Shown: positions 879 to 55,417 of the stretch, one piece after another | Layout: every line of letters starts with the position of its first letter | How positions within the stretch are numbered: position 1 is the first letter of the stretch | Source of the DNA: Corallium rubrum | Lineage: Eukaryota; Cnidaria; Anthozoa; Scleralcyonacea; Coralliidae | Assembly: GCA_964035015.1 (NCBI GenBank) | Contig: CAXIUP010000146.1 | Span: forward strand, 1-64,000 | DNA length: 64,000 nucleotides | Reading direction: 5' to 3' | Made by a program: the position numbers and the translations under genes | Notes under the pieces: generated by a model | Seen by the model: only the letters and a program-made list of their open reading frames with translations | The model's database searches: none | What the model was told of the DNA's origin: nothing

Positions 879-937
879 GGAATTCAGAGATAAAAACGAA
901 ACAAAACTAAAATTGGTACGTTATTTCAGTGGATACT

Positions 938-5942: not shown

Positions 5943-6216
5943 TATGGCGCGCCAGACGGGACAAAAATACTTTGGAGCTGAAACATAATACTTCACACAA
6001 TATGCAAGACTTGTTCGAGAAAATCAAACTTGTAAACGTACGCGCATACAACTTTCAAAATAAAATAAAACACATTTTGCAAAAAAAAAAAAGACTTCTT
6101 CGAAAATAAGACTTCTTCGATAACAAGACTTCTTCGAAAAAATAAAACTATTCTGAAAATCACAACTGATCGCGGGCTCAATATATCGCGGGCGCATGAA
6201 AGTTGACCGCTGACCA
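5943..6216 (+). repeat. Element A left TIR (~274 bp)
   Basis: Matches the reverse complement of 30148-30436 with few differences. It holds three tandem copies of a ~17-bp unit (aagacttcttcgataa-like) at about 6091-6140, against four copies in the right TIR, then ends just before the transposase ATG. Confidence 0.9.
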
Positions 6217-6254
6217 CACAAACTGTACACTCAATTTATACTAATAAATTTAAT

Positions 6255-8258
6255 ATGGCGGAAAATGAAGCGGCAGTTGGGATCAATACGCCAAATCCAT
6301 ACTTTCAGCAAATTTGTTCATACCTTTTACTCGGTAAAGATCTTTTTAATGAGATGAACAGAAATATCTTCACATCTCAAGAGGGCTATGCCGAAGTTCT
6401 TTGCTCTCGAAGCACTACATTTGTCGAGGGACTTGTTACAATTTCAAGGAATCCAGTTTGGCCACAAAATATTCTGGATGGTTTCTGTCTGCTAATAAAT
6501 GAATTTCAACGGTTACAGAATAGATACGAGGAGCGCTTTGACGGTTTTAGTGGAGAAGATTCACAATACGTGTGCCCTAACCAACAGCGCAATTCCGGGA
6601 AAGGACGTCCAAAATTTTTAATTCCTCGTTCTCAGCTTGTCGGTCTCCGTTCATTAAATTTTACTTGGAAGGCAATTTCAGTAATGCTTGGGGTGTCCGA
6701 GAAAACCATTTTGCGTCGCAGGTATGAATTCTCATTGCCAATTGGCGAGGATACTTTCACCGATATAACGGACGAAGAATTAGATGCGAAAATAGCATCT
6801 ATTCTAAGCTCTTCGCCAAATTCTGGGGAAAGAATGGTTATTGGGGCTCTTACTGCCATAAATATCAAGGTTAAGAGAGAGAGAGTACGTGCTTCAATTT
6901 CTCGAGTAGACCCAGTAAATCGGATGCTTAGAAGACATACATCTATTCAGAGGAGAGTTTATAGTGTTCCAACTCCAAATGCCTTATGGTTAGTATATGT
7001 ATTTTTAACTTCTCGTACAGTTCAACCACATATAAGTGTTATAAGCCCTTGGGGTATTTGGGTAGTTTAACAGCATCTCCCCATCCTTTGGGATCCCACT
7101 ATAGTAAGGTATCTAGTAAGGTATATGTTACATGTAAACATGAAAGAAAAGATGCTTAAGGGAAAATACACAACTTTCCCAAGACTTGCCATGTCTTGAT
7201 ATATATGGTGTTATGTATTGTTGTTTGTGACACCTCCTGTAACACCCCAGTGAGTAGATATACTACCAGATTTGGCATGTAGCATGGTGGGAAAAGTCCT
7301 TTCCAGCAAGTAAGCAATTCCCCTAAAAAGCTAAATGTGCTATACTTGAAAAGACTTTATGAAAGTCTAGATAGAATTTTCCATTTGAAACCTTCCAACT
7401 TGCACATTTCAATTAACATTGCTCCATACAAACTACTGTCTATATTTGTTTAGGCATTTGGATGGTAATCACAAGCTCATAAGATGGAGAATGGTTGTGC
7501 ATGGTGGAGTGGATGGGTATTCAAGGGCTGTGGTATTTCTCCAGTGTTCGAGCAACAATAAAGCTGCAACTGTTTTGGAACAATTTCTGATTGGCACAAG
7601 AACGTTTCATTTCCCCCGCCGTATCCGAACAGATCATGGAACTGAAAATGTTGAGGTTGCAAGATTCATGCTTCAAAGATACAATGCAGCCTCTAATCCA
7701 GTTATTACAGGCAGGTCTGTTCACAATCAGCGAATTGAAAGATTGTGGCGAGATGTGTTCACTTATGTGCTTCAACATTACTACAATCTTTTTTATTTTC
7801 TCGAGTCAAATGGAGAGCTTGATCCAAACAACGAAGTTGACATGTTTGCATTGCAGTATGTCTTTTTACCTAGGGTAAACAGAGCACTTGATCATTTTAT
7901 TACACAGTGGAATAATCATCCCCTCCGAACTGAAGGAAATAAGAGTCCATTGCAGCTATGGACTGCTGGTTTTTACCAATTTGCAGAGTCTGACTACCAA
8001 GCAGTGAGGGATGTTCTAGATTCAGAAGCTGTCAGTTTCAATGAATATGGTATTGATGATAATGGACCTGTACCACAAGTGCAGACCAATAATCATGTAG
8101 TTGTGCCAAGGTCCCTGGTGGAACTTTCAGAAGATGAGGAAACATTTCTAAGTAGTCACATAGATCCATTGCTTGATGATGAAAACTATGGAATTAACTT
8201 TTTTAGGAGAACTGTTAGACTTGTGGAAGAGTTTCAAGAAGATGACTCAGATGTGTAG
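6255..8258 (+). CDS. Element A transposase, integrase-like DDE protein
   Basis: Two exons, 6255-6988 and 7454-8258, joined by a GT..AG intron, give 1,539 nt or 512 aa without interruption. The ATG lies about 40 bp inside the TIR. Residues ~110-160 form a helix-turn-helix region (GVSEKTILRRR), likely the TIR-binding part. The catalytic core follows: first Asp in 'WHLDGN' (~248), formed across the splice; second in 'RTDHGTEN' (~304); Glu in 'NQRIERLW' (~339), a D-x34-E spacing typical of retroviral-type integrases. It should cut and join the TIR ends. It converges on the HECT gene of the same element. Element C carries a clearly related but broken copy. It looks intact. Confidence 0.88.
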
Positions 8259-8269
8259 GCATACTCTAA

Positions 8270-8593
8270 GGGACCGGTCATTAAATATAGAGGGGGCTAG
8301 AGGAGAAATTGGGGGGGGGGGTCCTGAGATTTTTCAGCATTGTGAAGGGGGGTTGCAAAAATGTTTTATAAAAATTCATTCTTAAAAAACTAAAGTATTA
8401 AAGAGGAAAGAAGTCGATCCATTTTAAACCAGAATTTTATAGACATTAAATAAACTGTCATCACTTCTACAACAAAACTATATTTTGCACTTTTTTTAAA
8501 TTTGAAGAGGTTTGGCAGTAGGGGGCCCAGAAAATTTCAAAAAAAAAATTAATTTCTCCTCCAGCCCCTCCTCTATATTTAGTGACCTGTCCC
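8270..8593. mobile_element. Harbinger-like MITE
   Basis: 324 bp with ~40-bp imperfect TIRs (GGGACCGGTCAtta... / ...gtgacctgtccc) and a TAA duplication on both sides (8267-8269, 8594-8596). It inserted just after the stop of the element A transposase. TWA targets suggest PIF/Harbinger. No coding capacity. Confidence 0.75.
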
Positions 8594-8776
8594 TAAGGCC
8601 CCTATGCCATGAATACAGGAAGCAAACCTGTTGTCCAAGAAAAACAATACGTTTATGTGGGTTTCCAGTTGCCCAATGGTTTTTTGACCACAAAAATGCT
8701 GACAATCTTTTTATAGAATATTGCAATGAGTTTTGACCAAAGTTGCAGCATGATAAGCATACATGTATATATTTCT

Positions 8777-9069
8777 CAGGGGTGTAGTGGAGGGGGGGGG
8801 GGGGGAGATGTTTGAAATTTCTGTGAAAGTTCTGTAAATATATTCAGTCATTTATAACAAGAATGATTTCAGTAATCTCTACTTACTCCTACCTACTCCT
8901 AGAGCACTAATCATGCCATTTGTCCCAATATATTACCTTTTACGAACACTGTTAAATGTTAATTACAGAATTGCTCCAAGTTTAACATTTTTTCCCTCCC
9001 ACCCCCTCCCAAATTCAGAACACTGTCAGAGAGCCCCCCCCTTGTTAAAGCTCCAGGACTACACCCCTG
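8777..9069. mobile_element. hAT MITE
   Basis: 293 bp starting CAGGGGTGTAGTGG and ending ctacacccctg, with a perfect 8-bp duplication atatttct (8769-8776, 9070-9077). Interior G- and C-runs, no ORF. It sits between the two convergent genes of element A. Confidence 0.88.
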
Positions 9070-9290
9070 ATATTTCTGTATAGATATATTCTGTATTTCT
9101 ATCACAACAGTTTAGAAATCTACAGTGAGTCTAATGCCTTTCTCAATAATCACATTTTTTTAAAAATTTAACTGTAACGTTTAACAAACCAACAGAACTT
9201 TTAACAAAACATGAATTTCTTATATTACCACTGTGTTGTCCCCTAACAGTGTTCATGTTCCAGTATCAGAATATAATATACAATGTCAAT

Positions 9291-9353
9291 GTAGTCTCAT
9301 GCCTGCAAGCAGTGTGGAGTGCAAGGCATTAATGGTCTAAGGCATGAGACTAC
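9291..9353. repeat. hairpin between convergent genes
   Basis: gtagtctcatgcct at 9291-9304 is a perfect inverted repeat of 9340-9353, with a 35-bp loop. It lies 24 bp beyond the HECT stop codon in the shared 3' region of element A. It could be a transcript-end structure or a tiny palindromic insertion. Confidence 0.6.
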
Positions 9354-9376
9354 CTATGATATCAAAGAATGCTCCT

Positions 9377-12300
9377 CTATACATTTCCAAAGCCACAGCA
9401 ATCAAGCAAAGCTGAAATCAACAGGTCGCCAAGTTCTTGTGATTTGCACGAATGAATTGGCAATGTAAGCACTAATGCACATGTTGACGATGTTGGCCTA
9501 CATTTGCATCCACCTTGACAACCATGCTTAAAGTGCACATTAAGGTCCATGGGAAAACCCACTGGTGGGATAGTTTCACAGCCAGTCATAAATTTCAACA
9601 CATGTTTCAATTGTAGCTCTGGAGCCTCACTTATGCCTACATGGAAGAGATTAAAAAACAATTACTTACAGGCAGGCTGTACTGTCTTGAAATTAAAGCT
9701 CGTCCCGAGGTCCTTTGTACGGTGGCCCACAAGTGCAATGCACAAAACAAATGTTTAGTGCAATAAAAAACTTTATAAAACACTAAAACTTTTTTCAATA
9801 CAAAACAAAATTATTCGATACAAAATAAAAGTATTCATGATGCAAAATACATATTTACAATTACAATGCAAAAACATTATCGATCAATGCAAAAACAAAG
9901 TTTTGTTCAATGCAAAAAAAGTGCCGCAGGACACTGACAGCGCGGGCGCCGGGTTCATTACCGTGCGATCCTCCATTGGAGACCATTACTCGTTTGCATA
10001 TTTGTTTCCCTTTGGCAATTTACCATTCCGTACCGATTGTTTTTTTCATGAATAATTCATGAAACACTGTTATGTTTTGCTGTAATTGTGGAGGACAGCT
10101 TCAACAAAAGTTCAAGTTTTGTCCAAGTTGTGGTACGCCAAGATCGTCCATAAATGGCAGCGTGAGCGAGGAGAGCACAAGCCAAGCCAGCAGCTCGGCC
10201 ACAGCTACCTCTACAAACGTCCCAGCCACCGCCAGAAAGAATGTAGCAGTACCTAGCTTTTCCTCGTTCAAAGAAGTGAAGGAAGCAGAGAGAAGGTCAC
10301 GTTTTGAGCCGAAGGCAAAGAAAAGGAAAGTGGAGAAAAAGGAGGAAGTTTTGATAAATGTTGGCCTGATGGAGATTTATTTAACGGGCAATCTCAGAAG
10401 AGTCTTTGGCAAGACCTTCCCTGTTAAGCTGTCAACGGACATGAACTATGACCAGGTCTTAGAAAAATCTTTACAAAAATGGCAGGATTACGACAAAACG
10501 TTCTCTCGAGAACGAGATTATGTGCTGGCCTATCCAGATACGAAATTGGCCCGTACCATTCCTGGAACAGACGAAGAGTTCATATTAAAGAAGTACAAGG
10601 AAGATCTAGGCAAATCCTACTCAAGAATAACACTATTTTTGGCTCCTGTCAATGCACCAGAAACCGAAGATGACAGTGGACCAAACGCCAATCCAATCGA
10701 CGACTACACAGAAGTTCCTGATATATTTCAAGACATCAATGAGGTACTAAATGAAGACATGGCATTCCTTCAAGACAATGGTTTCCCGGATCCTGTTCCT
10801 GAGCCCAGTGCAAATATGAGTAATTGTGATACAGATGATTTTATAGAATCTTTTGAAGTTGCAGATTTTTTGTAAGTGTACCTATTTTAAGTAATGTTTA
10901 CAACACGAGCGGCCGTGTTGTATTGAATTATACAATCACGAGCCGAAGGCGAGTGATTGTATATTCAATACAACAAGGACGCGAGTGTTGTAAACAACTT
11001 GTGAAATGAATAAATAGTAAAAATCCCTTTGGGATATTGAGATGCTAATTTGCTAATTAGTTACAAGGACTAGTGGTTGTATCAGAAGAGTATACATCCA
11101 CTAGTGGTTGTAACTAATTAGCATCATTGGTTTTAGTTTGTATGGGGTTTACAGGGGTATACATGTGATGTAATTTCTGAAATTGGATTGGCTGCAAAAC
11201 TCATGAATTAGTAATGAATTTCACAAGTGTATTTAAACTTGAATTTTGTTGATATGTAGATATGATATGTAGTTAATAATTCCTTCGAATATTTTTATTG
11301 AAATTTAGGCTGTTCAAAGAGCAATTGATAATAGCTTAAACACAATTACACTGTTGGATGATGATGATGATGATGATGAAGATGCTGGAGCTGCCAATGA
11401 CACACCTGCTCATTCCAGTGATGATTTTCAGTTGAGAATCAAGCAGTTTGCAGAAACTAAAATTAGTGGGGCAAATCGCACTGTTGTAGTCAGCCGATTA
11501 AGCATCTGGCAAACTGCATATCCCTACTTTGAGAGGAAGTGGTTCCTAACAGGATGTGGCTTGTTACAAGTTACATTTGCCACATTTGAAAGTGAAGATG
11601 CAGTTGATCTTGGGGGACCGCGAAGGGAATTTTTCCACTTGTTAATGGGAGCTATAGCAAGAGAAAGTGGAACAGTTACCAGTAAGAGTTTGTTTACAAT
11701 ACTTAATTCTTCAATAATGTCAAATTGTAAGGTTGCTTTGACACATGGGAAGTGGAATAAGGGGAGCTGGGTGCTAATTATGTGTTGTAGAAGTTCAAGA
11801 AAAGTACATTCACAACAAGGGTATGGCTAGTAGGCAGTAGCCCACACTTTGAAAAACGTTCTGCCATCCCTGCTTTGACAAGTATGATTTTGATTAAAAA
11901 GTGAAAGTTTTAAAGGTGCTATCCACTTGCTAGCCTGTGTACAGCCTGTAGTATAAGGAAAAAACTATGGGCTGTACACAGGCTAGCAATCTGTGGATAG
12001 CACCTTTAAAATTTCCACTTTTTAATTACAACCATACTTGTCAGAGCAACCTTACAGGTTGTTTATATTGGATTGGCCAGCAGACATCATCATACAATAC
12101 ATGCTAGAATTGCATCTGATTGGCCATTCTGCTATTTCCAACCTGGTTACCTATGTGTGGACTGTTAACCAATGGAATGCAACTCTGAGCATGTGTCATG
12201 ACTATGTTCTACGCAATTACTTGTTCATTTGGTCATTTGAATATTATAAAGGTCTGATAATTGATAACCAATATTTTTATTCAATAGACACAGTTCGTGG

Positions 12301-15300
12301 CCATGTCATACGATATAATGTTGGTGCATTGCAGAAAAGTGCTTTTCTAGTCGTTGGAAGGATGTTGGCAACCATGGTGGTGCAAGGAGGGGAAATTCCA
12401 CGTATATTCAGCAATGCCATCTGTCAGTATATCCAAGGTGGTTTTGATAACTCCCTTCCAATTATAGACGAGGTTGCTGATAAAAGTGTAAGGGACTCTC
12501 TCAATAAGGTATGTACAGTACCGCTTGGAAGTATTGAAGCATTTGACCGCGTGCAAATTTCGGGCATACCGCGTCTGATGGACGCGGTCACTTTCGGTCA
12601 GGACGCATGCTTGCCGCGGTCAGCTTGCGGTTTGACCGTACTTTGATCGCGGTCGACTGTGGCCGCGTCCAGAAACCACACGCGGTTAAACATCCGTTGT
12701 GTAATATGAACTTTTGGCCGCCTGTCAATGTCTGATAATCTGTGATAAGGTAATATTTGCGAAACTTATTTAGGATGTTTGTGTTGTGTTGTGTTTGTGT
12801 TTGTGTTTGTGTTTGTGTTTGTGTTTGTGTCTGTGTTTGTGTCTGTGTCTGTGTCTGTGTCTGTGTCTGTGTCTGTGTCTGTGTCTGTGTCTGTGTCTGT
12901 GTCTGTGTCTGTGTCTGTGTCTGTGTCTGTGTCTGTGTCTGTGTCTGTGTCTGTGTCTGTGTCTGTGTCTGTGTCTGTGTCTGTGTCTGTGTCTGTGTCT
13001 GTGTCTGTGTCTGTGTCTGTGTCTGTGTCTGTGTCTGTGTCTGTGTCTGTGTCTGTGTCTGTGTCTGTGTCTGTGTCTGTGTCTGTGTCTGTGTCTGTGT
13101 CTGTGTCTGTGTCTGTGTCTGTGTCTGTGTCTGTGTCTGTGTCTGTGTCTGTGTCTGTGTCTGTGTCTGTGTCTGTGTCTGTGTCTGTGTCTGTGTCTGT
13201 GTCTGTGTCTGTGTCTGTGTCTGTGTCTGTGTCTGTGTCTGTGTCTGTGTCTGTGTCTGTGTCTGTGTCTGTGTCTGTGTCTGTGTCTGTGTCTGTGTCT
13301 GTGTCTGTGTCTGTGTCTGTGTCTGTGTCTGTGTCTGTGTCTGTGTCTGTGTCTGTGTCTGTGTCTGTGTCTGTGTCTGTGTCTGTGTCTGTGTCTGTGT
13401 CTGTGTCTGTGTCTGTGTCTGTGTCTGTGTCTGTGTCTGTGTCTGTGTCTGTGTCTGTGTCTGTGTCTGTGTCTGTGTCTGTGTCTGTGTCTGTGTCTGT
13501 GTCTGTGTCTGTGTCTGTGTCTGTGTCTGTGTCTGTGTCTGTGTCTGTGTCTGTGTCTGTGTCTGTGTCTGTGTCTGTGTCTGTGTCTGTGTCTGTGTCT
13601 GTGTCTGTGTCTGTGTCTGTGTCTGTGTCTGTGTCTGTGTCTGTGTCTGTGTCTGTGTCTGTGTCTGTGTCTGTGTCTGTGTCTGTGTCTGTGTCTGTGT
13701 CTGTGTCTGTGTCTGTGTCTGTGTCTGTGTCTGTGTCTGTGTCTGTGTCTGTGTCTGTGTCTGTGTCTGTGTCTGTGTCTGTGTCTGTGTCTGTGTCTGT
13801 GTCTGTGTCTGTGTCTGTGTCTGTGTCTGTGTCTGTGTCTGTGTCTGTGTCTGTGTCTGTGTCTGTGTCTGTGTCTGTGTCTGTGTCTGTGTCTGTGTCT
13901 GTGTCTGTGTCTGTGTCTGTGTCTGTGTCTGTGTCTGTGTCTGTGTCTGTGTCTGTGTCTGTGTCTGTGTCTGTGTCTGTGTCTGTGTCTGTGTCTGTGT
14001 CTGTGTCTGTGTCTGTGTCTGTGTCTGTGTCTGTGTCTGTGTCTGTGTCTGTGTCTGTGTCTGTGTCTGTGTCTGTGTCTGTGTCTGTGTCTGTGTCTGT
14101 GTCTGTGTCTGTGTCTGTGTCTGTGTCTGTGTCTGTGTCTGTGTCTGTGTCTGTGTCTGTGTCTGTGTCTGTGTCTGTGTCTGTGTCTGTGTCTGTGTCT
14201 GTGTCTGTGTCTGTGTCTGTGTCTGTGTCTGTGTCTGTGTCTGTGTCTGTGTCTGTGTCTGTGTCTGTGTCTGTGTCTGTGTCTGTGTCTGTGTCTGTGT
14301 CTGTGTCTGTGTCTGTGTCTGTGTCTGTGTCTGTGTCTGTGTCTGTGTCTGTGTCTGTGTCTGTGTCTGTGTCTGTGTCTGTGTCTGTGTCTGTGTCTGT
14401 GTCTGTGTCTGTGTCTGTGTCTGTGTCTGTGTCTGTGTCTGTGTCTGTGTCTGTGTCTGTGTCTGTGTCTGTGTCTGTGTCTGTGTCTGTGTCTGTGTCT
14501 GTGTCTGTGTCTGTGTCTGTGTCTGTGTCTGTGTCTGTGTCTGTGTCTGTGTCTGTGTCTGTGTCTGTGTCTGTGTCTGTGTCTGTGTCTGTGTCTGTGT
14601 CTGTGTCTGTGTCTGTGTCTGTGTCTGTGTCTGTGTCTGTGTCTGTGTCTGTGTCTGTGTCTGTGTCTGTGTCTGTGTCTGTGTCTGTGTCTGTGTCTGT
14701 GTCTGTGTCTGTGTCTGTGTCTGTGTCTGTGTCTGTGTCTGTGTCTGTGTCTGTGTCTGTGTCTGTGTCTGTGTCTGTGTCTGTGTCTGTGTCTGTGTCT
14801 GTGTCTGTGTCTGTGTCTGTGTCTGTGTCTGTGTCTGTGTCTGTGTCTGTGTCTGTGTCTGTGTCTGTGTCTGTGTCTGTGTCTGTGTCTGTGTCTGTGT
14901 CTGTGTCTGTGTCTGTGTCTGTGTCTGTGTCTGTGTCTGTGTCTGTGTCTGTGTCTGTGTCTGTGTCTGTGTCTGTGTCTGTGTCTGTGTCTGTGTCTGT
15001 GTCTGTGTCTGTGTCTGTGTCTGTGTCTGTGTCTGTGTCTGTGTCTGTGTCTGTGTCTGTGTCTGTGTCTGTGTCTGTGTCTGTGTCTGTGTCTGTGTCT
15101 GTGTCTGTGTCTGTGTCTGTGTCTGTGTCTGTGTCTGTGTCTGTGTCTGTGTCTGTGTCTGTGTCTGTGTCTGTGTCTGTGTCTGTGTCTGTGTCTGTGT
15201 CTGTGTCTGTGTCTGTGTCTGTGTCTGTGTCTGTGTCTGTGTCTGTGTCTGTGTCTGTGTCTGTGTCTGTGTCTGTGTCTGTGTCTGTGTCTGTGTCTGT

Positions 15301-18300
15301 GTCTGTGTCTGTGTCTGTGTCTGTGTCTGTGTCTGTGTCTGTGTCTGTGTCTGTGTCTGTGTCTGTGTCTGTGTCTGTGTCTGTGTCTGTGTCTGTGTCT
15401 GTGTCTGTGTCTGTGTCTGTGTCTGTGTCTGTGTCTGTGTCTGTGTCTGTGTCTGTGTCTGTGTCTGTGTCTGTGTCTGTGTCTGTGTCTGTGTCTGTGT
15501 CTGTGTCTGTGTCTGTGTCTGTGTCTGTGTCTGTGTCTGTGTCTGTGTCTGTGTCTGTGTCTGTGTCTGTGTCTGTGTCTGTGTCTGTGTCTGTGTCTGT
15601 GTCTGTGTCTGTGTCTGTGTCTGTGTCTGTGTCTGTGTCTGTGTCTGTGTCTGTGTCTGTGTCTGTGTCTGTGTCTGTGTCTGTGTCTGTGTCTGTGTCT
15701 GTGTCTGTGTCTGTGTCTGTGTCTGTGTCTGTGTCTGTGTCTGTGTCTGTGTCTGTGTCTGTGTCTGTGTCTGTGTCTGTGTCTGTGTCTGTGTCTGTGT
15801 CTGTGTCTGTGTCTGTGTCTGTGTCTGTGTCTGTGTCTGTGTCTGTGTCTGTGTCTGTGTCTGTGTCTGTGTCTGTGTCTGTGTCTGTGTCTGTGTCTGT
15901 GTCTGTGTCTGTGTCTGTGTCTGTGTCTGTGTCTGTGTCTGTGTCTGTGTCTGTGTCTGTGTCTGTGTCTGTGTCTGTGTCTGTGTCTGTGTCTGTGTCT
16001 GTGTCTGTGTCTGTGTCTGTGTCTGTGTCTGTGTCTGTGTCTGTGTCTGTGTCTGTGTCTGTGTCTGTGTCTGTGTCTGTGTCTGTGTCTGTGTCTGTGT
16101 CTGTGTCTGTGTCTGTGTCTGTGTCTGTGTCTGTGTCTGTGTCTGTGTCTGTGTCTGTGTCTGTGTCTGTGTCTGTGTCTGTGTCTGTGTCTGTGTCTGT
16201 GTCTGTGTCTGTGTCTGTGTCTGTGTCTGTGTCTGTGTCTGTGTCTGTGTCTGTGTCTGTGTCTGTGTCTGTGTCTGCGTGTGTCTGCGTGTCTGCGTGT
16301 CTGCGTGTCTGCGTGTGTCTGCGTGTGTCTGCGTGTGTCTGCGTGTGTCTGCGTGTGTCTGCGTGTGTCTGCGTGTGTCGGCGTGTCGGCGTGTCGGCGT
16401 GTGTCTGCGTGTCGGCGTGTCGGCGTGTCGGCGTGTCGGCGTGTCGGCGTGTCGGCGTGTCGGCGTGTCGGCGTGTCGGCGTGTCGGCGTGTCGGCGTGT
16501 CGGCGTGTCGGCGTGTCGGCGTGTCGGCGTGTCGGCGTGTCGGCGTGTCGGCGTGTCGGCGTGTCGGCGTGTCGGCGTGTCGGCGTGTCGGCGTGTCGGC
16601 GTGTCGGCGTGTCGGCGTGTCGGCGTGTCGGCGTGTCGGCGTGTCGGCGTGTCGGCGTGTCGGCGTGTCGGCGTGTCGGCGTGTCGGCGTGTCGGCGTGT
16701 CGGCGTGTCGGCGTGTCGGCGTGTCGGCGTGTCGGCGTGTCGGCGTGTCGGCGTGTCGGCGTGTCGGCGTGTCGGCGTGTCGGCGTGTCGGCGTGTCGGC
16801 GTGTCGGCGTGTCGGCGTGTCGGCGTGTCGGCGTGTCGGCGTGTCGGCGTGTCGGCGTGTCGGCGTGTCGGCGTGTCGGCGTGTCGGCGTGTCGGCGTGT
16901 CGGCGTGTCGGCGTGTCGGCGTGTCGGCGTGTCGGCGTGTCGGCGTGTCGGCGTGTCGGCGTGTCGGCGTGTCGGCGTGTCGGCGTGTCGGCGTGTCGGC
17001 GTGTCGGCGTGTCGGCGTGTCGGCGTGTCGGCGTGTCGGCGTGTCGGCGTGTCGGCGTGTCGGCGTGTCGGCGTGTCGGCGTGTCGGCGTGTCGGCGTGT
17101 CGGCGTGTCGGCGTGTCGGCGTGTCGGCGTGTCGGCGTGTCGGCGTGTCGGCGTGTCGGCGTGTCGGCGTGTCGGCGTGTCGGCGTGTCGGCGTGTCGGC
17201 GTGTCGGCGTGTCGGCGTGTCGGCGTGTCGGCGTGTCGGCGTGTCGGCGTGTCGGCGTGTCGGCGTGTCGGCGTGTCGGCGTGTCGGCGTGTCGGCGTGT
17301 CGGCGTGTCGGCGTGTCGGCGTGTCGGCGTGTCGGCGTGTCGGCGTGTCGGCGTGTCGGCGTGTCGGCGTGTCGGCGTGTCGGCGTGTCGGCGTGTCGGC
17401 GTGTCGGCGTGTCGGCGTGTCGGCGTGTCGGCGTGTCGGCGTGTCGGCGTGTCGGCGTGTCGGCGTGTCGGCGTGTCGGCGTGTCGGCGTGTCGGCGTGT
17501 CGGCGTGTCGGCGTGTCGGCGTGCCCGCGTGCCCGCGTGCCCGCGTGCCCGCGTGCCCGCGTGCCCGCGTGCCCGCGTGCCCGCGTGCCCGCGTGCCCGC
17601 GTGCCCGCGTGCCTGTGTTTGTGTTTGTGTTTGTGTTTGTGTTTGTGTTTGTGTTTGTGTTTGTGTTTGTGTTTGTGTTTGTGTTTGTGTTTGTGTTTGT
17701 GTTTGTGTTTGTGTTTGTGTTTGTGTTTGTGTTTGTGTTTGTGTTTGTGTTTGTGTTTGTGTTTGTGTTTGTGTTTGTGTTTGTGTTTGTGTTTGTGTTT
17801 GTGTTTGTGTTTGTGTTTGTGTTTGTGTTTGTGTTTGTGTTTGTGTTTGTGTTTGTGTTTGTGTTTGTGTTTGTGTTTGTGTTTGTGTTTGTGTTTGTGT
17901 TTGTGTTTGTGTTTGTGTTTGTGTTTGTGTTTGTGTTTGTGTTTGTGTTTGTGTTGTGTTAGTAATGATCATGGAAATGACAAAGGTACTAAAACTCTGA
18001 CATGTACAGTATCTACAATATTTGGTGAGCTAGCACACTGGAGCTGCTGTATTTTAATCGCGGATATTTAGTTTCGGATTAATTGCTGGTTGGAAAGCTA
18101 GGTCAATATGAGACAACAGCGTATATAAGTATCAATCATCAATATGACATTAGCCATTCAACACTAGACATCATTCAAAGAGTTCACTTTGAACTAAACA
18201 AAATGCAAGAAATTATACAAGAAGACGTTTGTGGAAACTCGAAGGGCGAAATTTTTCACGCGAAGTGACATTTCTGTTGTTGAAATTGAAAAGCTTTGAT

Positions 18301-30098: not shown

Positions 30099-30147
30099 TC
30101 CGATACGATATGTACTAAAAATTTCAATATATACACATCGCAACATA

Positions 30148-30436
30148 TGGTCAGCGGTCAACTTTCATGCGCCCGCGATATATTGAGCCCGCGATCAGTT
30201 GTGATTTTCAGAATAGTTTTATTTTTTCGAAGAAGTCTTGTTATCGAAGAAGTCTTATTATCGAAGAAGTCTTATTTTCGAAGAAGTCTTTTTTTTTTGC
30301 AAGATGTGTTTTATTTTCTTTTGAAAGTTGTATGCGCGTATGTTTACAAGTTTGATTTTCTCGAACAAGTCTTGTATATTGTGCGAAGTATTATGTTTCA
30401 GCTCCAAAGTATTTTTGTCCCGTCTGGCGCGCCATA
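30148..30436 (-). repeat. Element A right TIR (~289 bp)
   Basis: Inverted copy of 5943-6216 with four rather than three copies of the ~17-bp gaagtctt unit. The HECT start codon lies 50 bp inside it. Confidence 0.9.
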
Positions 30437-30900
30437 CTATTTGGTCATAACTGGCACAAAACTATGCATAAATATGTTTCACGAGGAATGTTTAAGATAA
30501 GCAATCAACCAATGAAAATGCCGAATCCAACAGCCGATATGTCAGAACCTTTTCCCACCTTACCAATTTCAAAAAGGCCCTGAAGAACGAGGTTGAGCGG
30601 TGTGTTGTGCCCAGACTTTTTTCACTTGGTGGGTGTTTTCTGATTCATTAAAGTTGCCATGTTTTCTCAAAGGTAAATAGGAATGTAGCATCAATATGTA
30701 CAATTCAGTCATTGAATTTTCTTTCTCAATACATTGTCATTCATTACATTATACCGTTATGCTTTTTGGTTATTTTATGCTATAGAGAAAGATTGGCAAA
30801 CATTATTTACCATGTGCAAAAATTAATGCTGAGAAAAAGTGCCCTTTTTATAAGGCTGCCCCCACTGCCTTAAGTAGCTTCCGGCGCCCCTGATCCCAAC

Positions 30901-39355: not shown

Positions 39356-41537
<2,182 letters not shown>

Positions 41538-46414: not shown

Positions 46415-47003
46415 TATGGCGTGCCAAGATGGACAATATTACTTTACGTCCATTCATACAATGTATATATCAAATATGTAATTTCAAATATATTTTTGTA
46501 AGCCGAAATTACCATATATAAAACGAAACAGAAGTATATATAGCGAAACAGAAATATATACAACGAAACAGAAATATATAAAACGAAACAATCATATATA
46601 AATCGAAACAACCATATATAAAACGACATTAGTATATATAAATGATATTGGGCATTTCACTCGATTACATAGCATGTTCTAAGGATTTAGGGTGAAGGAA
46701 AACTCGAGTGTAGAATATATACATTTTAAGACCAAACCGGGAGCAGTTGCGAAAAATGCAACTACACAGGCCCTCCGGCAGGAATTGAACCCACGACCTT
46801 GCGATTCTAGTGCAATGCTCTGACCATATATCTGAAATATTCTCAAATATAAAACGAATATCCCCAAATATATGAAACGAAATTCGTCAAATATATAAAA
46901 TGAAATTCCTCAAATATATAAAACGACATTTCCCAAATATATAAAACGACATTTGAGTCAATTTGACTAAAATTAAACGACATTTTTGGCGAGAAAGAGT
47001 GCG
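46415..47003 (+). repeat. Element C left TIR, split by a SINE
   Basis: Pairs with 55027-55417 once the 46644-46833 insertion is set aside. Built from about 20 diverged copies of a ~17-20-bp 'atatataaaacgaaacagaa' unit, grading into 'aaacgacatt' units near the gene. Confidence 0.85.
46644..46833 (-). mobile_element. tRNA-derived SINE-like insertion
   Basis: Interrupts the left TIR of element C relative to the right TIR. On the minus strand it begins near 'atatggtcagagcattgcac' (A-box-like) and carries 'gtgggttcaattcctgcc', a good B box (GGTTCRANNCC), spaced as in a tRNA. A ~100-bp non-tRNA body follows. Boundaries are inferred from the TIR break. Confidence 0.7.
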
Positions 47004-49295
47004 ACTAATTTATCCGGAGTAAATTTTCTGTAACCACGCTTATGCAAATATGGCGGGCAACAGAAATCTGCAAAGTTTATCAAATCTTGTCAAAGCAATT
47101 TCTCGATTGAGTCAAAGTAGCACAGAGACCCGTAATAGTGGGGAGACGCAAGAAACTACAGACGACGTGGAAGCAACGATACCAACGCTCTTTCCTTCAA
47201 CGAATGGTCAATTAACATCGACACAAGCAAACCGAAATGAAACTCGCGTGGTCGCGGAACATGGCGCGCTGAATATGCCTGGTCGTCGGTACCCCGAAAA
47301 CGCAGAAAGATTCGTGCCTAATCGCAAATATGGTACCAAGTAACGGCCAAGAAACGTGAAGAATTCGACCAGCAAAAAGCCCAAGTGCAACGAACAGCGG
47401 ACAGTACTGAAAGACGTAATTCTTTTGCATGGTCCAAAGCAAGACAAAGTCCCTCGTGGCATAGCACGAGAAGCACTGTTTGCGCTTGGTTTTAGCACGA
47501 CGTTTGAACTGAGCATTACTATGCAAGAAAGTGAGATCAGGAGTTTACTGGAAGAAAAATTTAAAAACAAACTTGAATCTATTTCCAGAAAAGGCAACAA
47601 GTTTCAGTTCGTAAGAGGTATAAACAGCAAAATCATCTCTTTTGAAAATATTAATCAACAAGAGTGCCAGGCGCCATGTGACGGGAGACTTCTAAAACAC
47701 ATTTCCGGTCAAGGGCCATTGTACATTCGCGCAAATGAAGATATTAGTGCACCTCTGCAGGCATACTTCAATTCCAAACAAAGGAGACATGAGAAAGATG
47801 ACAACACAGATGATGAGATGGAGTCGGAGAGTAGCACTGGAGACGAGGAAGCAATTATGCGAAATACAATGCATAAGCCTCGCCCAACCCCCAATGTAAG
47901 AGTAGACCTAAGTAATTTGGATGATGGCACTGCACCTGGCGAAGATAGTGTTCCAGACTGTGACCCGTTACCTGCCACAGGTGAATCATCAACTACAATG
48001 CCTTCAACATCTACAGCCCGTGCACCAGAACAGCTTATACGTGTACGTTGCCCTACATGCGAGGGAAGTTTTTCCAGCCATGAAATCGAGGACCATGCTG
48101 ATGGATGTGCTGAAGCTGCCTGGACTGGTTCAGAACACCTAGTGTATGCTAGATTAATGACAGACATAGAGACTGATGACCAAGATCCCTTGGAAAACCA
48201 ATCAGCTGCAGGGGAGAACAATTCAGACCCTGAAACTGACGATGTCAATCCAGGCATCCCACCACCTGTTGATCAGCAGGATAATTGGGACCCTACAACT
48301 GATGGAAGTCCAGCAGACATGAAGGCTGAATTGATTGGTACCTTGCAAACATTGCAAACAAACCTCAACACACGTACCAATAGGATCAATGTCCAGAGAA
48401 CAAGTGTCCTTGATGATTACATTGATGCACGCAAACGATGCCATTGGATGCGTCCTGAAAACCGAATCAAGGTTGTTTTCATCGGAGAACCAGCAATTGA
48501 TACTGGTGGGCCAAAACGTGAATTTTGTTCTGGTAAGTAAGTTTAATTTTACAAAAACTACATTTTAATAGGCAAATCAATTTGGATTTGTTAAACATTG
48601 GAGATTTTCATTTTTGTAAAGCAAAAACTTTTGGCATGTGAATATAAGGTATGTAAATATTTTTAAGCATTGCCATGTTCACCAAACGCAAAAGATGTTT
48701 TTGTTTTCAAGTCCTGTCATATTAATGCTGAGTCCTGTGTGGTGACTGGTGTGTTTGCCCTTATAATTTATTTGAAATGAATAATCTTCTAATATGAAAT
48801 ATACTTTTATCTTTGTAAGATGTGCTTGGGTACAGAATCGACTATTTGACCGGAATGGAATGCCAGTTGCAAGCACTCTGGCATTGACACAGGACCTCTT
48901 TAAATATGCAGGTGAATTGATGTCAATATCCATTATCCAAGGTGGGCCTGCACGAAACTTCTTGTCACCTGTCATATTTGATGTAATTGCTAAAGGTCTG
49001 TCAAAAGCTGTGTATTCCCTGGAGATGATTGAGGAACCAAATTTGAAAGAAATTGCAACCCAGGTACAGTATTGACTGATTAAAATTAAAGTAATGATTT
49101 TTCTTATGTTTTGTTAATTAAACTATTTGTTCCAGCCAATTGACCTAGGGGTGGATTTACCAGGGGTGGACAAGGAATGAGTTTATGGTATTCAAGTTTT
49201 AAATATTTGAGATATTCAACATTTGTTATCAGTCTTACTGTAGCTCCTTAGGCCTACTTAAGTTTTGGAATTCAAACCAGCACTGCAGTGGCACA

Positions 49296-49472
49296 CAGTG
49301 GCGGTTCTAGAAGTTAGTCACATAAATTAGCAGCTCGCAATTTGAAATTCAAAATACCTGAATAACAATCCTATTGGTTATCTGAATTATTCTTTGCAAA
49401 TGCCTAACAGTAACCAATAAGGTTGTTATTAAGGTATTTTGAATTTCTGACATACTTCTAGATCCGCCACTG
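49296..49472. mobile_element. small CAGTGGCGG-type MITE
   Basis: Inverted ends cagtggcggttctagaagt and acttctagatccgccactg enclose ~140 bp. The termini look hAT-like but no 8-bp duplication is visible. It sits in intron 2 of the C HECT gene. Confidence 0.6.
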
Positions 49473-50029
49473 GACTGGTATAGTACTAGTTCAAAATACC
49501 CAATATTAATAATTGCCATGCCTCTTGACTCATGACTTGTGTAATGTTGACTGTTGAGGTTTTGGGAATTTATATCATAATAAATAATGAAATTGTATTT
49601 ATTCAACATATCTGCAAATTGTGCAATTAATGTAATGAACAAACTTCCAAAGGTGCAACCTTGCTTGCCCATGACAGTAACTTTATACAATTATTTTTTA
49701 TCCTTGTTACTTTTGGATTGGCTCCCAATTTAAAACTTAAAGTATTAAATGGTGATTGGGTTTTCTAAACAATCGAGTTACCATAATTACTGTACATGTT
49801 TATAGATTGATTCTGTGGATACTGATGCTGATCTACAATCTAAACTCATGGAGGATAATGTTCTTGTTGTGCTTGGCCAAGTTGGCTATAGAGGGATCCC
49901 CAACAGAGACTCTTGGATCAAAGGATAAAATAGTCAGGTATTATCACACATCTTTCGGTATAAGTATAGGTAATCATGCAATGAGGAGTACAATCAAGGA
50001 TTAACAGTGCAAATGATGTTTGAAAATGT

Positions 50030-50391
50030 TGCCAAAATTGCACGAGCCGTTAGGCGAGTGCAATTTGGCAAATCTTCAAATATCACGAGTAGTGTAAATA
50101 CTTAATTGCACAAGCAAAATCATATGATTACTTGTTTATTATTTACATGACAAAATTACGTTTAGCAACTTACTATTTCACTTTCTTTTCCGCCCTTTAA
50201 TAATTGCACTCTCCTTTATTGCACTCGAGTGCAATTAATGAGGGTAATAGAACGACGAGGAGTGCTATTAATGCCAAAATCATATGAGTGATTACAAAAT
50301 CGACCGACCGCGAAGCGGGAGGTTGATTTGTTAATCACGAGTATGATTTGGCATTAATAGCACGATTCAATTCGTTCTATTACCCATTAAT
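50030..50391. repeat. palindromic 'cgag' repeats in intron 3 of the C HECT gene
   Basis: Arms such as tgccaaaattgcacgag / gcgagtgcaatttggca (~50032-50075) and further inverted words to ~50385 around a 'cgaccgcgaagcggg' core. Similar in style to 10894-10996. Probably MITE-derived. Confidence 0.55.
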
Positions 50392-51127
50392 TATATATAC
50401 TTCTGTAATCAGGTCATTCAGGTCATGTCCTCGTCTTCTTTGTTTTCGACAGCAAATACTTCATAGTAGCCCAACTTTTGGGTTTTAGACCTAGGCCTCT
50501 CAACATGGCCCGCAAAAAATGCAAATGTCAGGCGGCCATTTCTTTTAATATACGGAGACTCATCGAGGAGTTTTTTTAATAATAAAGTGAATTTATGAGG
50601 AGTTCATACAATTGTATGTGAGGTCAAACCGGGAGTTATTGATAAAGAATGACAAGAACCAAAAATGTGAGTAATTTAGTGCTGTTTGTCTTTACTTTAT
50701 AGCGTGTTTATACGCATGTTTTTATAAACACACTCATGCAGTTTAAGTTTACTGTATTTCACCGAGTGTTGCTACTTTACTGACTAAAATATTTAAGAAA
50801 TACCCGGGTGCCAATCTGGGTAATACTTTGTTTTTAATTTGTTGGGGACACGACACTGTTTTCAAAACGTATACAAAAAAATACAAATTTAAATTCTATA
50901 TTTTAATATTTAAAATCCTCCATTTTTTAATTTTTTTGAAAAATCCCGGAAAATCCTACAGCTTAGGTGCTGAACTGTGATTGGACAATTTTGATAGCTA
51001 GCTTGATTTCCATTGGCTGAAGCAGGTGTGCGATTACAGCTAGCAAGAGGTGCGATTAATGTTCAAATCGCACTCCTCTAAACCAATGAAATTGCAGTAT
51101 TTGGGCCTGATTACAGAAGGATATATA
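50392..51127. mobile_element. non-autonomous TIR element with possible 6-bp duplication
   Basis: 736 bp with ends tatatatacttctgtaatca and tgattacagaaggatatata. Flanks are attaat on both sides (50386-50391, 51128-51133). Since attaat is palindromic the exact boundary is ambiguous. No ORF. Confidence 0.6.
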
Positions 51128-51258
51128 ATTAATCATTTTATTGTACTCCTCTCCACCAATCAGCATCCAGTAATTTTGTCATGTATATAATACTATATAC
51201 TGTACTGCATGGTGAATTGTGTTCACCTGATGTCAAAATAGCCAAGTACATGTAAAAC

Positions 51259-51727
51259 CAGGGGTGGATTTACCAGGGGGTGGCAAGGGTGTACACCCCT
51301 GTTGGCCTTGGTCAACATGGGTGCAAAGGGGTAGGGACATTGCTAAATGGAGTCAGCAAATTTAGAAGTGAGTCAGGTAAAATAAGGTTAACCTAACCTT
51401 GGTTATGTGGACACTTTCCAAAGGGGAGCTTTAATGGGAGTCAGCGAGTTGGTGCCACACAACCCCCTGCACAAATAGTTCTAGCTACACCCCTTTGAAA
51501 GGGGGTGCAAAAAACTAAGTTTATATTATTTTTAAATAATCTATACATAGAGACCCCAGAATCCCAAAATTCCTTGCACCCCCCGGACCAATTTTGTCCC
51601 CACAACACAATCCTGCCTTCACCTCTCCCCCCCAATAAAAACTACAGCCCTGGTTGATGTGTTCTCCAACAACACCCAGAAGTCAATTAACCCCCCCCCC
51701 CTAAAAACCTTGCTGGATCCACCCCTG
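51259..51727. mobile_element. hAT MITE
   Basis: 469 bp from CAGGGGTGGATTTACC to ggatccacccctg, with a perfect 8-bp duplication tgtaaaac (51251-51258, 51728-51735). Non-coding, inside intron 3 of the C HECT gene. Confidence 0.9.
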
Positions 51728-52264
51728 TGTAAAACAACATTCCTGGTAAAAGAACAAAATATATTCATTCTTCCTGCAGGTCTATAATAATCAAGTCACA
51801 AATTGAACCAAAGTTGGGCATGATAACGCAGTTAGAAGAGGGCCTGTCTGTCTGCAAGCTATTAGATGCCATTCGTGCAAGACCAGCCTTGTTCAGAGCT
51901 GTTTTTGTGCCTGGTTGCATATTTGATCATGATGCAGATGAGTTCTTGGATGGGTTGAAGGTTACCTTTAGTGAGAACCAGAAGGAAAGAATTGTTGAAG
52001 CAACAGTTTACAAACATTTTTGTGATTTTGTACTGTTTCTTCATAATGATGGTTAGTACTTGATGGTTAATCTCATGCATGGTTCTGTGCAACAATTGCC
52101 ACAAATTGCCTTGCATGTTGTAGCAAAAATGCCTTGTGTTTAATTGGCTTTTTGCCATTTCCTTTTATACAGTTTTCCTCATTATTTGAAATTTTGTATC
52201 ATGAAACTGGAAATATTTTTTAGCTTTTTAATTTCAAATTCCATTTAAAAGTTGGATTTCTGGC

Positions 52265-52312
52265 ATCATAGACAATCCAAAACACAAATATCTTTTGGAT
52301 TGTCTATGCTGG
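52265..52312. repeat. short hairpin
   Basis: agacaatccaaa...tttggattgtct inverted repeat with a ~20-bp loop, in intron 4 of the C HECT gene. No known motif. Confidence 0.5.
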
Positions 52313-52654
52313 CATGAATAGTTCGCTCAAAATATTTCATAGGTTTATGATATCACATTTATACTGTACATCAAGCTATATATACTGTACTTTCAGGGAT
52401 AGAAGAGCACGATTTGAAGTTACCGCATCTTTTACGTTTCGTAACTGGATGCTATTCATTCCCTCCACTTGGTCTTCCTGATTCTATCAAGATCAAATTC
52501 CTGCATGGTTGTCACAATGGCTGCAAGTGTTGTCCAACAGTGTCAACATGCCAATTGTTCATCAGGCTTCCAGTTCATGCAGCTACATTTCAGTATATGA
52601 AGGAGTTGATGGTATTCTGCCTTGCTGGAAGGTTTTGGGTTTGGCAAAATATAA

Positions 52655-53180
52655 ATTGCCATATTAACACATTGCTTGTTATTATTACCATACATTGTAT
52701 TTATAGTATGAATGGAAAAGCAAAAACAATCATATGTATTTTCTACATTATTTTCTATAATAACCTTTTTACAATATATATATATATACAGTAGGGTACT
52801 ACATTACAATTTACTTTATTTAATTTTGTTTTGAGTGACAGTAAAGACTTGAAATTTGTGTTATCCACATGGTACTAAATGTATTTGGGAAACTAGATGT
52901 GTAATTTACAAATTACCTATTGAGGTTCTTAACCAAACTATCAACTCATGTATGTCACTCAATTCTTTCATCACTCATATTTTGCCCTATTTCTAGCAAT
53001 TTTTCTTGGACAGTGAATGAACTTTAGTTCCTTGCACCCACTTTTAAAATTGTGCAACCTGCACTAAAATAATCTGAGTTCAAATGTCAGTTTTTTCATC
53101 ACTGTCAAATATTTTCCTGTACTTTACATGTTTGTTGTTCCAATTAGGTTTTTTGTCCCTGTTTATAATATATTGTCCAG
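52655..53180. other. shared 3' region of the two element C genes
   Basis: Non-coding AT-rich stretch between the convergent gene remnants, with a short (ta)n run at ~52779-52790. Nothing else seen. Confidence 0.5.
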
Positions 53181-54989
53181 TCAGGCATCAAGGATCATTT
53201 CAAGTGCTTCACATGCATTCACAAAGAGATATTTACCGTGTTCGTTATCTTCATCTAATGGATTCACTAACAATACTAATATGGCCATCTCCTTATCTTC
53301 AAGAACGATATTTGATTCAGGTATCTCCACATGATTCACTGTTCGAATTTCAGGCATTGGACCATCATCATCAATACCATAGGAATTCACATCCAGTGTT
53401 TCTGGGTTTACAACATCTCTCACCGTTTCATAATTAGAGTTGGCAAATTCATAAAAACCCTGCACCCATACTTGATAGGGGCTCCTATTTCCTTCAGTTG
53501 AAAGAGGGTGGTTGTTCCATTGTGTTGCAAATAATGTGAGTGCCCTGTTAATTCGAGGTTTAAACACATAATGAAGGGCAAATAGGTGGACTTCGTCCAA
53601 TGGATCCAGTAAATCGAGAGATTCCAGATAAAAGAAGAGATTACGGAAGTAACTGATGACATATGTGTTGACATCTCTCCACAATCGTTCAATCCTTTGA
53701 TTATGGACAGAAAGGCCAGTTAAAATTGGTTTTGAAGTGGGTCCAAAATGCTGCAGCATCCACCTGGCAACACCAACATTTTCTGTCCCATGATCACTCC
53801 GAATTCGACGAGGACATTGTATGTGGACATGCTATTGAGAAACAGTTGAAATACTGTCTGACTTCTGTTGTCACAAGCACAGCCAAGATAAACAATAGCT
53901 CTTGAAAACCCATCAATTCCTCCATGAACTACAAATCTCCATCGGATCATCTTGTGATTACCATCTATGTGCCTGAAATTTTAAAACAATAATATTCATA
54001 TTACAATTACATCATGCTTGATGTCTTACAACTACTCAATTTTGGCTCTTTAAAATAGTGTCTACCGTAACATACTACAATGAATTACAATCTGGTTGTG
54101 ACCCTCAAATCTTGGAAGGAGAAATAGTATATTGGTCCATACCCCTCCCCCCATTAAATCCATCATTAACCTCGTTCCCAGGGCCTTTCCCCAAAAAATA
54201 TAAGGTAATGACATGAGATACCGATAACATGCATAGTTGCCATGATTCATTGCTTTTGGCATCAGTTGCAGCTAAATATATAAACATAAAAAATCATACC
54301 ATAATGCATTAGGTGTTCTAACACTGTATAGTCTCCGATGGATGGCAGTTCTACGTAATTCCCTGCTAACAGGATCTATTCTTCGGATAGATTGTCGTAC
54401 TCTCTCTCTTTGTACTTTGACACCATACCCCTTTAATGCTCCTATGACCATTCTTTCACCAGAGTTTGGAGAATAGTGTGAGATGCGTTGGACAAATACG
54501 TCTAGCTCATCATCATCTATTTCACAATAGTTCAATACCTGACCTAATGTCATTCCAAGTTCACTCCGGCGTCTACGCACTGTTTTCTCTGAAACACCAA
54601 GCATCAGGGCTATCTTTTGCCAGGAAAAATGCAGTGAACGTAAGCCTTCAAGTTGCTGCTTTGGGATGAGAAATCGAGCTCGACCTGCACGTCTTCTAAC
54701 GTTCTCTTCAAGCGGGCAAGCATAGTTACAGTCGTCATTATCATCGAAGAAGTTAAATCGCTCAATAAGTCTCGAAATACGTTCTTGAAATTCCCCAATG
54801 ACTTCTTGAAAAATAAGACAAACGTCCTCCGGCCATGGCACAGCATGGTAGAACAAAGATAAACCGCAAACGAATTCCTCACATCAACAGCAGCATCGTC
54901 AGTAAATGAATTACACACCAGTTCTTCATAAAGGTTAAAACCATGTCTAAATATTCGATAACGTCTTCTCTTGCGGCTAGTTCCGCCAT
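53181..54989 (-). pseudogene. Element C transposase, integrase-like, decayed
   Basis: Two exons as in element A (54989-54300 and 53972-53181) with the intron at the same codon, 'W|HIDG'. Helix-turn-helix 'LGVSEKTVRRRR' and the catalytic set 'WHIDGN', 'RSDHGTEN', 'NQRIERLW' are all recognisable. The frame shifts twice near the N-terminus (54990-54840) and once at ~53815-53830, just before the second Asp. The intron carries a solo cctcgttcccagggc repeat end at ~54172. It is non-functional but clearly the sister of the element A protein. Confidence 0.85.
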
Positions 54990-55026
54990 GTTTCTACGAT
55001 TTTTGGCGCGACATTTACTTCCATTG

Positions 55027-55417
55027 TATCGCTCTTTCTCCGCCAAAAATGTCGTTTTATTTTAGTAAAATGTCGTTTTAAATATTTGGGGAATTTCGTT
55101 TTATATATTTGACGAATTTCGTTTCATATATTTGGGAATATTCGTTTTATATTTGAGAATATTTCGTTTTATATATATACTAATGTCGTTTTATATATGG
55201 TTGTTTCGATTTATATATGATTGTTTCGATTTATATATGATTGTTTCATTTTATATATTTCTGTTTCGTTGTATATATTTCTGTTTCGCAAAATATACTT
55301 CTGTTTCGTTTTATATATGGTAATTTCGGCTTACAAAAATATATTTGAAATTACATATTTGATATATACATTATATGAATGGACGCAAAGTAATATTGTC
55401 CATCTTGGCACGCCATA
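55027..55417 (-). repeat. Element C right TIR (~391 bp)
   Basis: Uninterrupted counterpart of the left TIR, with tandem tttcgttttatatat-like units, followed by the tttttg duplication. Confidence 0.87.

Follow-up and report, generated by a model that had tools for sequence, protein, structure and literature searches.

IS3EU/GingerRoot DNA transposons are described by a 6-bp target-site duplication (TSD), TA..TA termini, and a DDE transposase without an HHCC motif (PMC10045372). In the account of fungal IS3EU elements, the ends are TAYGG..CCRTA, the terminal inverted repeats (TIRs) exceed 30 bp, and the TSD is again 6 bp; an alpha-kinase gene lies opposite the transposase, with TET/JBP between them (PMC12730594). 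Ginger1 transposons that carry an OTU or Ulp1 protease domain are reported to have TGTNR ends, an H2C2 zinc finger, and a 4-bp TSD (PMC2836005). Here, we analyze a stretch of 64,000 nucleotides from Corallium rubrum (contig CAXIUP010000146.1, positions 1 to 64,000; the window), in which three elements, A, B, and C, each combine a DDE transposase gene with a gene for a HECT E3 ubiquitin ligase. Very probably they are DNA transposons of the autonomous type, although C is now broken, and fit IS3EU/GingerRoot, with the ligase as a core component kept by selection. This confidence covers the identity of the elements and the status of the ligase as a core gene, not its mechanism.

Architecture of elements A, B, and C

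All three elements begin with TAYGGYG, end in its complement, are bounded by a 6-bp TSD, and contain convergent genes for a DDE transposase and a HECT E3 ligase. Element A (A-type, 5943..30436) starts TATGGCGCGCC and ends in its complement. Its TIRs (about 5943-6216 and 30148-30436) are ~274/289 bp long and match at 92.7%, and its exact TSD is CTATTT/CTATTT (5937-5942, 30437-30442). Element B (B-type, 9718..26308) starts TACGGTGGCCC; its 232-bp TIRs (about 9718-9949 and 26078-26308) match at 98.7%, with the exact TSD CCTTTG/CCTTTG (9712-9717, 26309-26314). Element C (A-type, degenerate, 46415..55417) starts TATGGCGTGCC and has an outer TIR of 228 bp at 94.7% (about 46415-46642 and 55190-55417) and the exact TSD TTTTTG/TTTTTG (46409-46414, 55418-55423). 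A strict structural scan of the window (TAYGG..CCRTA, a 20-bp TIR at 70% or more, and an exact 6-bp TSD) recovered just A, B, and C; the same scan on 30 Markov-1 resamples of the window gave one match in total.

A preliminary description of the window had given the coordinates, the TAYGGYG TIRs, the 6-bp TSDs, and the convergent gene pairs correctly to the base. It had also spoken of three separate elements. They are three distinct TIR/TSD units, but B is nested in A: it interrupts intron 4 of the A HECT gene, which separates exons 4 and 5. Without B, element A measures ~7.9 kb. The A HECT frame is open across B, so this gene was apparently intact at the time of the B insertion.

The A transposase is encoded by two exons on the forward strand. 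Exon 1 (6255..6988; an open reading frame with a profile match to 6696-6995 and a donor site read from the sequence) covers the N-terminal region, and exon 2 (7454..8258; acceptor read from the sequence) covers the DDE catalytic core. The A HECT gene runs on the reverse strand. Its exon 1 (28772..30098) encodes a UBZ-like zinc finger and the start of the HECT N-lobe. Exons 2 (27695..27939), 3 (27276..27409), and 4 (26719..26990), the last followed by the intron that holds B, were placed by exon joining and profile. Exon 5 (9377..9636) contains the C-lobe with the catalytic Cys (STC) and the Phe at position -4 (GFGNV end).

The B transposase is a single reverse-strand frame of 424 residues (24749..26023) with an N-terminal zinc ribbon, an HTH-like part, and the DDE core (D191, D233, E274). 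The B HECT gene lies on the forward strand. Exon 1 (10072..10871) encodes an N-terminal zinc ribbon (MFCCNCG..FCPSCG) and the domain that follows it, and exon 2 (11329..11681) the start of the HECT domain; the 5' splice site of exon 2 was fitted to the frame and is uncertain. Exons 3 (12288..12508), 4 (22206..22403), and 5 (22731..22920) were placed by exon joining and profile. Exon 6 (23585..23892) holds the C-lobe, the catalytic Cys (QTC), and the -4 Phe. Between exons 3 and 4, in intron 3, B itself carries an 8.85-kb insert with TA flanks (12516-21367). This insert is element-like, with ends CAGTACCGCTT... and 32-bp inverted ends at 84%; its interior holds ~5 kb of simple repeat as well as two inverted copies of a ~310-bp sequence, 93% alike (about 19055-19364 and 19753-20053).

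Element C retains both ends, and both of its genes are broken. The HECT pieces (forward strand, 47050..52654) form five exon-like stretches interrupted by a stop in exon 1 and by frame shifts, and were found with a HECT profile built in this analysis. The transposase pieces (reverse strand, 53181..54856) were identified from open reading frames, Pfam, and profile.

These features fit an assignment of A, B, and C to IS3EU/GingerRoot, judged from the 6-bp TSD, the TAYGG termini, and the missing HHCC. The TSD is exactly 6 bp in all three, the termini are TAYGG..CCRTA with TIRs of at least 228 bp (>30 bp), and the A-C frames have rva_4/rve matches of the integrase-type DDE kind without an upstream HHCC. 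Identity with Ginger1 or Ginger2 was rejected on the TAYGG termini, the 6-bp TSD, and the lack of H2C2, against TGTNR ends, a 4-5 bp TSD, and H2C2 as given in PMC2836005.

Pairing of the two genes across the genome

We searched the window's own assembly (474 Mb, 312 contigs), from which all context elements are taken. The listed matches number at least 99 for the B transposase, at least 139 for the A transposase core, at least 150 for the rva_4 family, and at least 131 for the HECT family, with 515-1351 first-look candidates per query. Merging gave at least 283 transposase loci (99 + 139 + 46 rva_4 matches judged new by eye) and at least 112 HECT loci. Because the lists are partial, the pair counts are minimum values; the HECT list lacks the exons of the window itself, and a search with the HECT of locus L031 (at least 68 matches) was left out of the counts.

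A listed transposase is found no more than 6 kb from 43 of the 112 listed HECT loci, against 0.86 expected by chance. The two genes are convergent in 42 of these close pairs, in tandem in one, and divergent in none. The tandem pair (G000:C103:579798-585986, 5.3 kb apart) may be two elements. The 69 HECT loci still unpaired include apparent multi-exon host genes as well as loci whose transposase is merely unlisted. The preliminary description had named HECT genes mostly without a transposase as one of two findings that would undo its proposal. All five apparently lone HECT loci that were fetched adjoin a convergent transposase. Two of these (L032, L033) were hand-picked and three (L037-L039) were the first of eight seeded random draws; the pool was 54 HECT loci that had a single match each and no transposase listed beside them. 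The sample was taken from the 79 loci unpaired before the rva_4 list was included; four of the five are in the final 69, and the 65 others are uninspected.

Starting from the transposase, 18 of the 20 best B-type matches after B (10 kb each) have a convergent HECT gene. Loci L029-L031, chosen for a nearby HECT, also hold the convergent pair, which is thus present in 26 of 28 fetched test loci (the host HECT controls L034-L036 are excluded from the 28). Both ends and an exact 6-bp TSD fall within the fetched stretch in seven of 25 further scanned loci (L017, L018, L020, L026, L027, L028, and L032), and the outer TIR stretch is 188-430 bp in the first six of these. Nine loci (L010-L015, L021, L023, L024) show the transposase-side end only, of the TACGGTGGCC type, and L016 shows neither end. 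The scan found no complete end pair in the 5-kb stretches of L037-L039. In L025, the TSD, read from the sequence, matches at five of six positions and lies in an AT repeat. Judged from these loci, the standard layout of such elements in this host is two genes, a DDE transposase and a HECT ligase, placed at opposite ends and convergent between long TIRs.

Relatives are also found among public proteins. Of these, 1615 are related to the B transposase (named hosts seen include the corals Dendronephthya and Montipora), 45 to the L031 HECT (named hosts seen: the corals Paramuricea and Oculina), and 14 to the L025 HECT; one of these 14, P0051, is a transposase that shares the ribbon alone. P0134 is 100% identical, and some public relatives may be from the same species. 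Two relatives of the transposon HECT from the octocoral Paramuricea clavata (P0152, P0178) are filed as SMURF2-like or pub2 and are probably misread transposon genes; 'SMURF2-like' and similar ligase predictions in coral genomes can be transposon genes. About residues 5-170 of the L031 HECT, in its N-terminal part, have ~40 further genome matches at 34-45% with no HECT part in the same match. These are perhaps first exons of other HECT families.

Two other mobile sequences lie in the window. An uninterrupted frame of 1371 residues (929-5044) matches reverse transcriptase, RNase H, H2C2, and integrase, with a weak gag match, and is an LTR (long terminal repeat)-type retrotransposon polyprotein. 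Just past C, at 55567-59997, two frames resemble a non-LTR retrotransposon; the first has SAP and GDSL-like matches and the second endonuclease and reverse transcriptase.

Conservation, selection, and probable exchange in the two proteins

The A and B transposases both have an rva_4/rve integrase core. The Pfam rva_4 family (PF24764) is matched by B (E=5e-33), the second frame of A (1.5e-76), and a piece of C (9e-35). Integrase_H2C2 gave no match at E 0.1 in the scanned frames of A, B, and C. The B transposase also has a weak HTH_21-like match. Aligned with 28 relatives, this protein shares D233 and E274 with all of them; D191 and the ribbon residues C3, C6, C17, and C20 are conserved in at least 90%. 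The DDE triad is intact in 24 of 26 transposases examined; L013 is without E, and L014 is cut. The transposase alignment had no sequence match among solved structures, and no relative of the B transposase was found in viral contigs.

When the exons are joined, the HECT proteins match PF00632 in both A (5 exons, 745 residues; E=2.8e-10) and B (6 exons, ~692 residues; 6.8e-16). Unjoined single HECT frames of A-C gave no Pfam HECT match. Pfam recognizes the HECT domain in L020, L025, and L031 too. With an alignment of 12 relatives, the best Protein Data Bank sequence match of the L025 HECT is E6AP (1c4z, E=1e-19), and the Tollip CUE structure (1wgl) also matches. A Phe at position -4 is a hallmark of HECT ligases. 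The catalytic Cys is aligned in 29 of 29 HECTs with a readable C-lobe (A, B, C, 23 loci, and L037-L039) and the -4 Phe is found in 27 of them, the exceptions being C, where it is out of frame, and L038. Several families have single-exon HECT genes and others have 5-6 exons. Two intron positions are shared by the A and B genes, phase included: one is at profile position ~158 (phase 0), the other at ~290 in A and at ~286 in B (phase 1). This suggests that these two types go back to a single ancestral HECT gene. Between families, the HECT proteins diverge widely in their N-terminal regions. The alignments and locus contents establish that catalytic residues are conserved in both proteins and that the pairing extends across very divergent families.

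We compared 16 pairs for the ratio of nonsynonymous to synonymous divergence (dN/dS). Three between-family pairs are unsaturated at synonymous sites for both genes, and nine are saturated in one or both. HECT dN/dS is 0.11 for L027/L028 and L024/L028, which are nearly one comparison, and 0.17 for L012/L009; the transposase values are 0.065-0.069 and 0.06, respectively, and all of these ratios are rough because dS is 1.5-2.6. Young copies of the L009 group have HECT ratios of 0.18-0.63 and transposase ratios of 0.22-0.39, and the near-identical L024/L027 have 1.25 and 1.04. Low ratios between families and higher ones in young copies are as expected if both genes are selected during jumping and decay later. 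In the pairs that can be measured, substitution patterns demonstrate purifying selection on both genes. The preliminary description had argued for an old association kept by selection and not a one-off capture. The convergent pair across divergent families, the active-site marks, and purifying selection on the HECT bear this out.

The same description had proposed congruent trees as the sign of co-evolution and incongruent ones as its other refuting sign; incongruence is seen once. Transposase and HECT distance matrices of 24 elements are correlated (Spearman 0.54, Pearson 0.75), with none of 2000 permutations reaching this level. The correlation is raised by near-copies among the rows, and in one lineage a B-type transposase is paired with an A-type HECT domain. 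The families are common to both gene trees, with this one firm deep conflict. The transposases of L021, L024, L027, and L028 are B-type (A/B split 100/100), and the HECT domains of these loci group with A, C, and L030 (96/98; 97/99 in another run); the L021 HECT row is under half filled. In approximately unbiased (AU) tests, the transposase data reject the HECT-tree grouping (p-AU 6e-10), and the HECT data reject, less strongly, the six A-type elements as a sole group (p-AU 0.0125); the tested groups were chosen after the first tree. It seems that the HECT half moved between lineages at least once, the pair being retained in such elements. The swap looks like exchange between relatives, not repeated host capture. 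Only two short rows of the host HECT outgroup (L034-L036) could be aligned, and they do not settle the root of the HECT tree.

A C-x2-C ... C-x2-C ribbon stands at the start of the transposase in 21 of 21 B-type elements (B, L009-L028). The HECT protein also starts with a ribbon in ten of them (B, L009, L017, L018, L020, and L024-L028, of which L024 and L027 are near-copies). No HECT ribbon was found in L010-L016, L021, and L023 (nine with a HECT), where the HECT-side element end lies outside the stretch. Among A-type elements, A, C, L030, and L032 allow the HECT start to be assessed; the L029 stretch does not show it, and in L031 and L033 its position is uncertain. In the 14 elements judged, the ribbon is present in both proteins or in neither (14/14), which represents few independent events. 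The A-type HECT domains of L024/L027 and L028 have a ribbon start, so the N-terminus there follows the transposase.

L025 (83-7428) suggests how the ribbon came to be shared. Its TIR of ~633 bp, largely a short tandem repeat, reaches beyond the start codon of each gene, and the transposase and the HECT are identical over their first 40 residues. We read ribbon sharing as having arisen by extension of the TIR into the coding start, with later divergence. When a TIR gives two different proteins one and the same N-terminus, partners are kept alike in a striking manner. Modules of another kind, related to ubiquitin binding, occur in several HECTs. In L020 and L025, a CUE match passes the Pfam cut-off, and a UBZ-like Cys-His pattern was noticed in C, L027, and L028 by eye alone.

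Possible roles of the ligase and comparison with known systems

The sequence points to an apparently functional ligase that is retained beside its transposase; how the ligase serves the element is a separate question. That it acts on the transposase-DNA complex is a reasonable possibility, one that overlaps with action on host targets and with restraint of the transposase; it is favored by the ubiquitin-binding modules and, in one branch, by the ribbon common to both proteins. The ligase would be recruited to the transposase or to the element ends; B-type elements may use for this the type of zinc ribbon that their two proteins have in common. There it would ubiquitinate the transposase or other proteins on the complex. 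This could set the transposase level or help to clear the complex so that repair follows. The CUE/UBZ-like modules would bind ubiquitin that is already attached and favor chain growth. More tentatively, the elements may represent an old two-enzyme transposition system with ubiquitination built in. Its enzymes would form a matched pair, with a common ribbon that the TIR can encode in one large branch, so that the element ends choose which ligase meets which transposase; the HECT half would be swappable, its N-terminus following the transposase (L024, L027, L028).

Several observations weigh against these proposals or against the core status of the ligase. Every element examined for context comes from a single genome, and the explanation is drawn from sequence. 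No HECT was found in the fetched stretches of L019 and L022, where retroelement-like long frames, seen by eye, follow the transposase. The L026 HECT gave no Pfam match at E 0.05 and matches a custom profile that it helped to build, and the L038 HECT frame has Tyr for Phe at -4. The dN/dS pairs that are unsaturated are few, at dS 1.5-2.6. As the HECT swap implies, the catalytic domain can go with more than one type of transposase. No ribbon was seen in either protein of the seven A-type elements (A, C, L029-L033), nor is one visible in frame in the B-type transposase of L038, where the profile match begins past the ribbon; the ribbon thus cannot be a general recruiting device. Residue-level matching of partner ribbons, tested on seven pairs (six besides L025), has no signal once L025 is omitted, with no excess of likeness within over between elements (4743 of 20000 permutations as high). 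The UBZ-like finger of the A HECT is below the Pfam cut-off, and the C and L027 frames have no Pfam UBZ match. The L038 locus itself (815-5340) pairs its ribbon-less transposase with a 384-residue HECT frame and perhaps belongs to a derived or decaying family.

The ligase could instead be aimed at the host, marking silencing or defense proteins for destruction and shielding the element with no direct role in transposition. We consider this somewhat unlikely. It would agree with the wide differences between HECT N-termini, as expected of substrate-binding parts, and the TET/JBP genes of fungal IS3EU are linked by their author to escape from silencing (PMC12730594). In most B-type elements with visible starts, the ligase opens with the transposase's kind of zinc ribbon, which points to a common partner or DNA site and not to a separate host target, although this is not decisive.

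A role as a brake, restraining the transposase so that copy number stays tolerable, appears rather unlikely. It is compatible with every sequence result, and the convergent genes could yield antisense transcripts that couple the two levels. However, selfish copies would easily drop a pure brake, and the wide retention of the HECT gene argues that an element without it does worse.

It is improbable that the HECT genes are passengers, captured from the host several times, with their co-occurrence reflecting the amplification of lucky captures. The HECT domains of some families are very divergent, exon numbers range from one to 5-6, one lineage shows the swap, and the host rows are too short to root the tree, all of which would suit repeated capture. 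Against it stand the same convergent slot in 26 fetched pairs and in A-C, the conserved catalytic Cys with its mostly conserved -4 Phe, between-family HECT dN/dS of 0.11-0.17, and the two intron positions common to A and B. Finally, although nested transposons and simple repeats abound in the region, an accidental neighborhood of ordinary host HECT genes and unrelated transposases can be dismissed, since resampling (three exact TIR and TSD structures against one in 30 resamples), the pair counts (43 against 0.86, 42 convergent), and the complete elements in seven of 25 scanned loci rule out a chance origin of the A-C structure and pairing.

A ligase kept as a core gene of these transposons can be set beside the known systems. 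A-C have the TSD length, the TA..TA termini, and the HHCC-less DDE transposase of IS3EU/GingerRoot as described in PMC10045372. The words HECT and ubiquitin are absent from the main text of that paper, and some of its 17 autonomous Repbase entries may carry an unnamed HECT gene. The preliminary description had known of no formal account of the pairing, and we found none among the papers listed by full-text literature searches (HECT with IS3EU, transposon, cnidarian, and Repbase terms), whose scope did not extend to Repbase/Dfam entries and subscription papers. One candidate paper contained just 'hectic', and HECT was not found in the main text of another candidate or of papers on transposon-linked domains. 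The description had not recognized that the superfamily is already known; of the HECT gene within it we found no report in the literature searched. The fungal IS3EU elements of PMC12730594 share with A-C the TAYGG..CCRTA ends, a TIR of >30 bp, the 6-bp TSD, and a second enzyme gene in opposite orientation. This gene encodes an alpha-kinase there and a HECT ubiquitin ligase here, so there is precedent for placing a second enzyme gene opposite the transposase; the main text of that report uses neither 'HECT' nor 'ubiquitin'.

The element HECTs resemble cellular HECT E3s in the HECT domain, the catalytic Cys, and mostly the -4 Phe. They differ in residing in a mobile element beside a transposase and, in several cases, in having an N-terminal zinc ribbon and CUE/UBZ-like modules. 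As a natural enzyme pair, the two proteins make ubiquitin control of eukaryotic transposition directly testable. Ginger1, as presented in PMC2836005, likewise ties an integrase-like transposase to the ubiquitin/SUMO system. There, a deubiquitinase or SUMO protease is fused to the transposase, whereas A-C have a separate ligase gene. If the present reading is true, a ligase as a standard gene across families would be the opposite arm to these transposon deubiquitinases and SUMO proteases.

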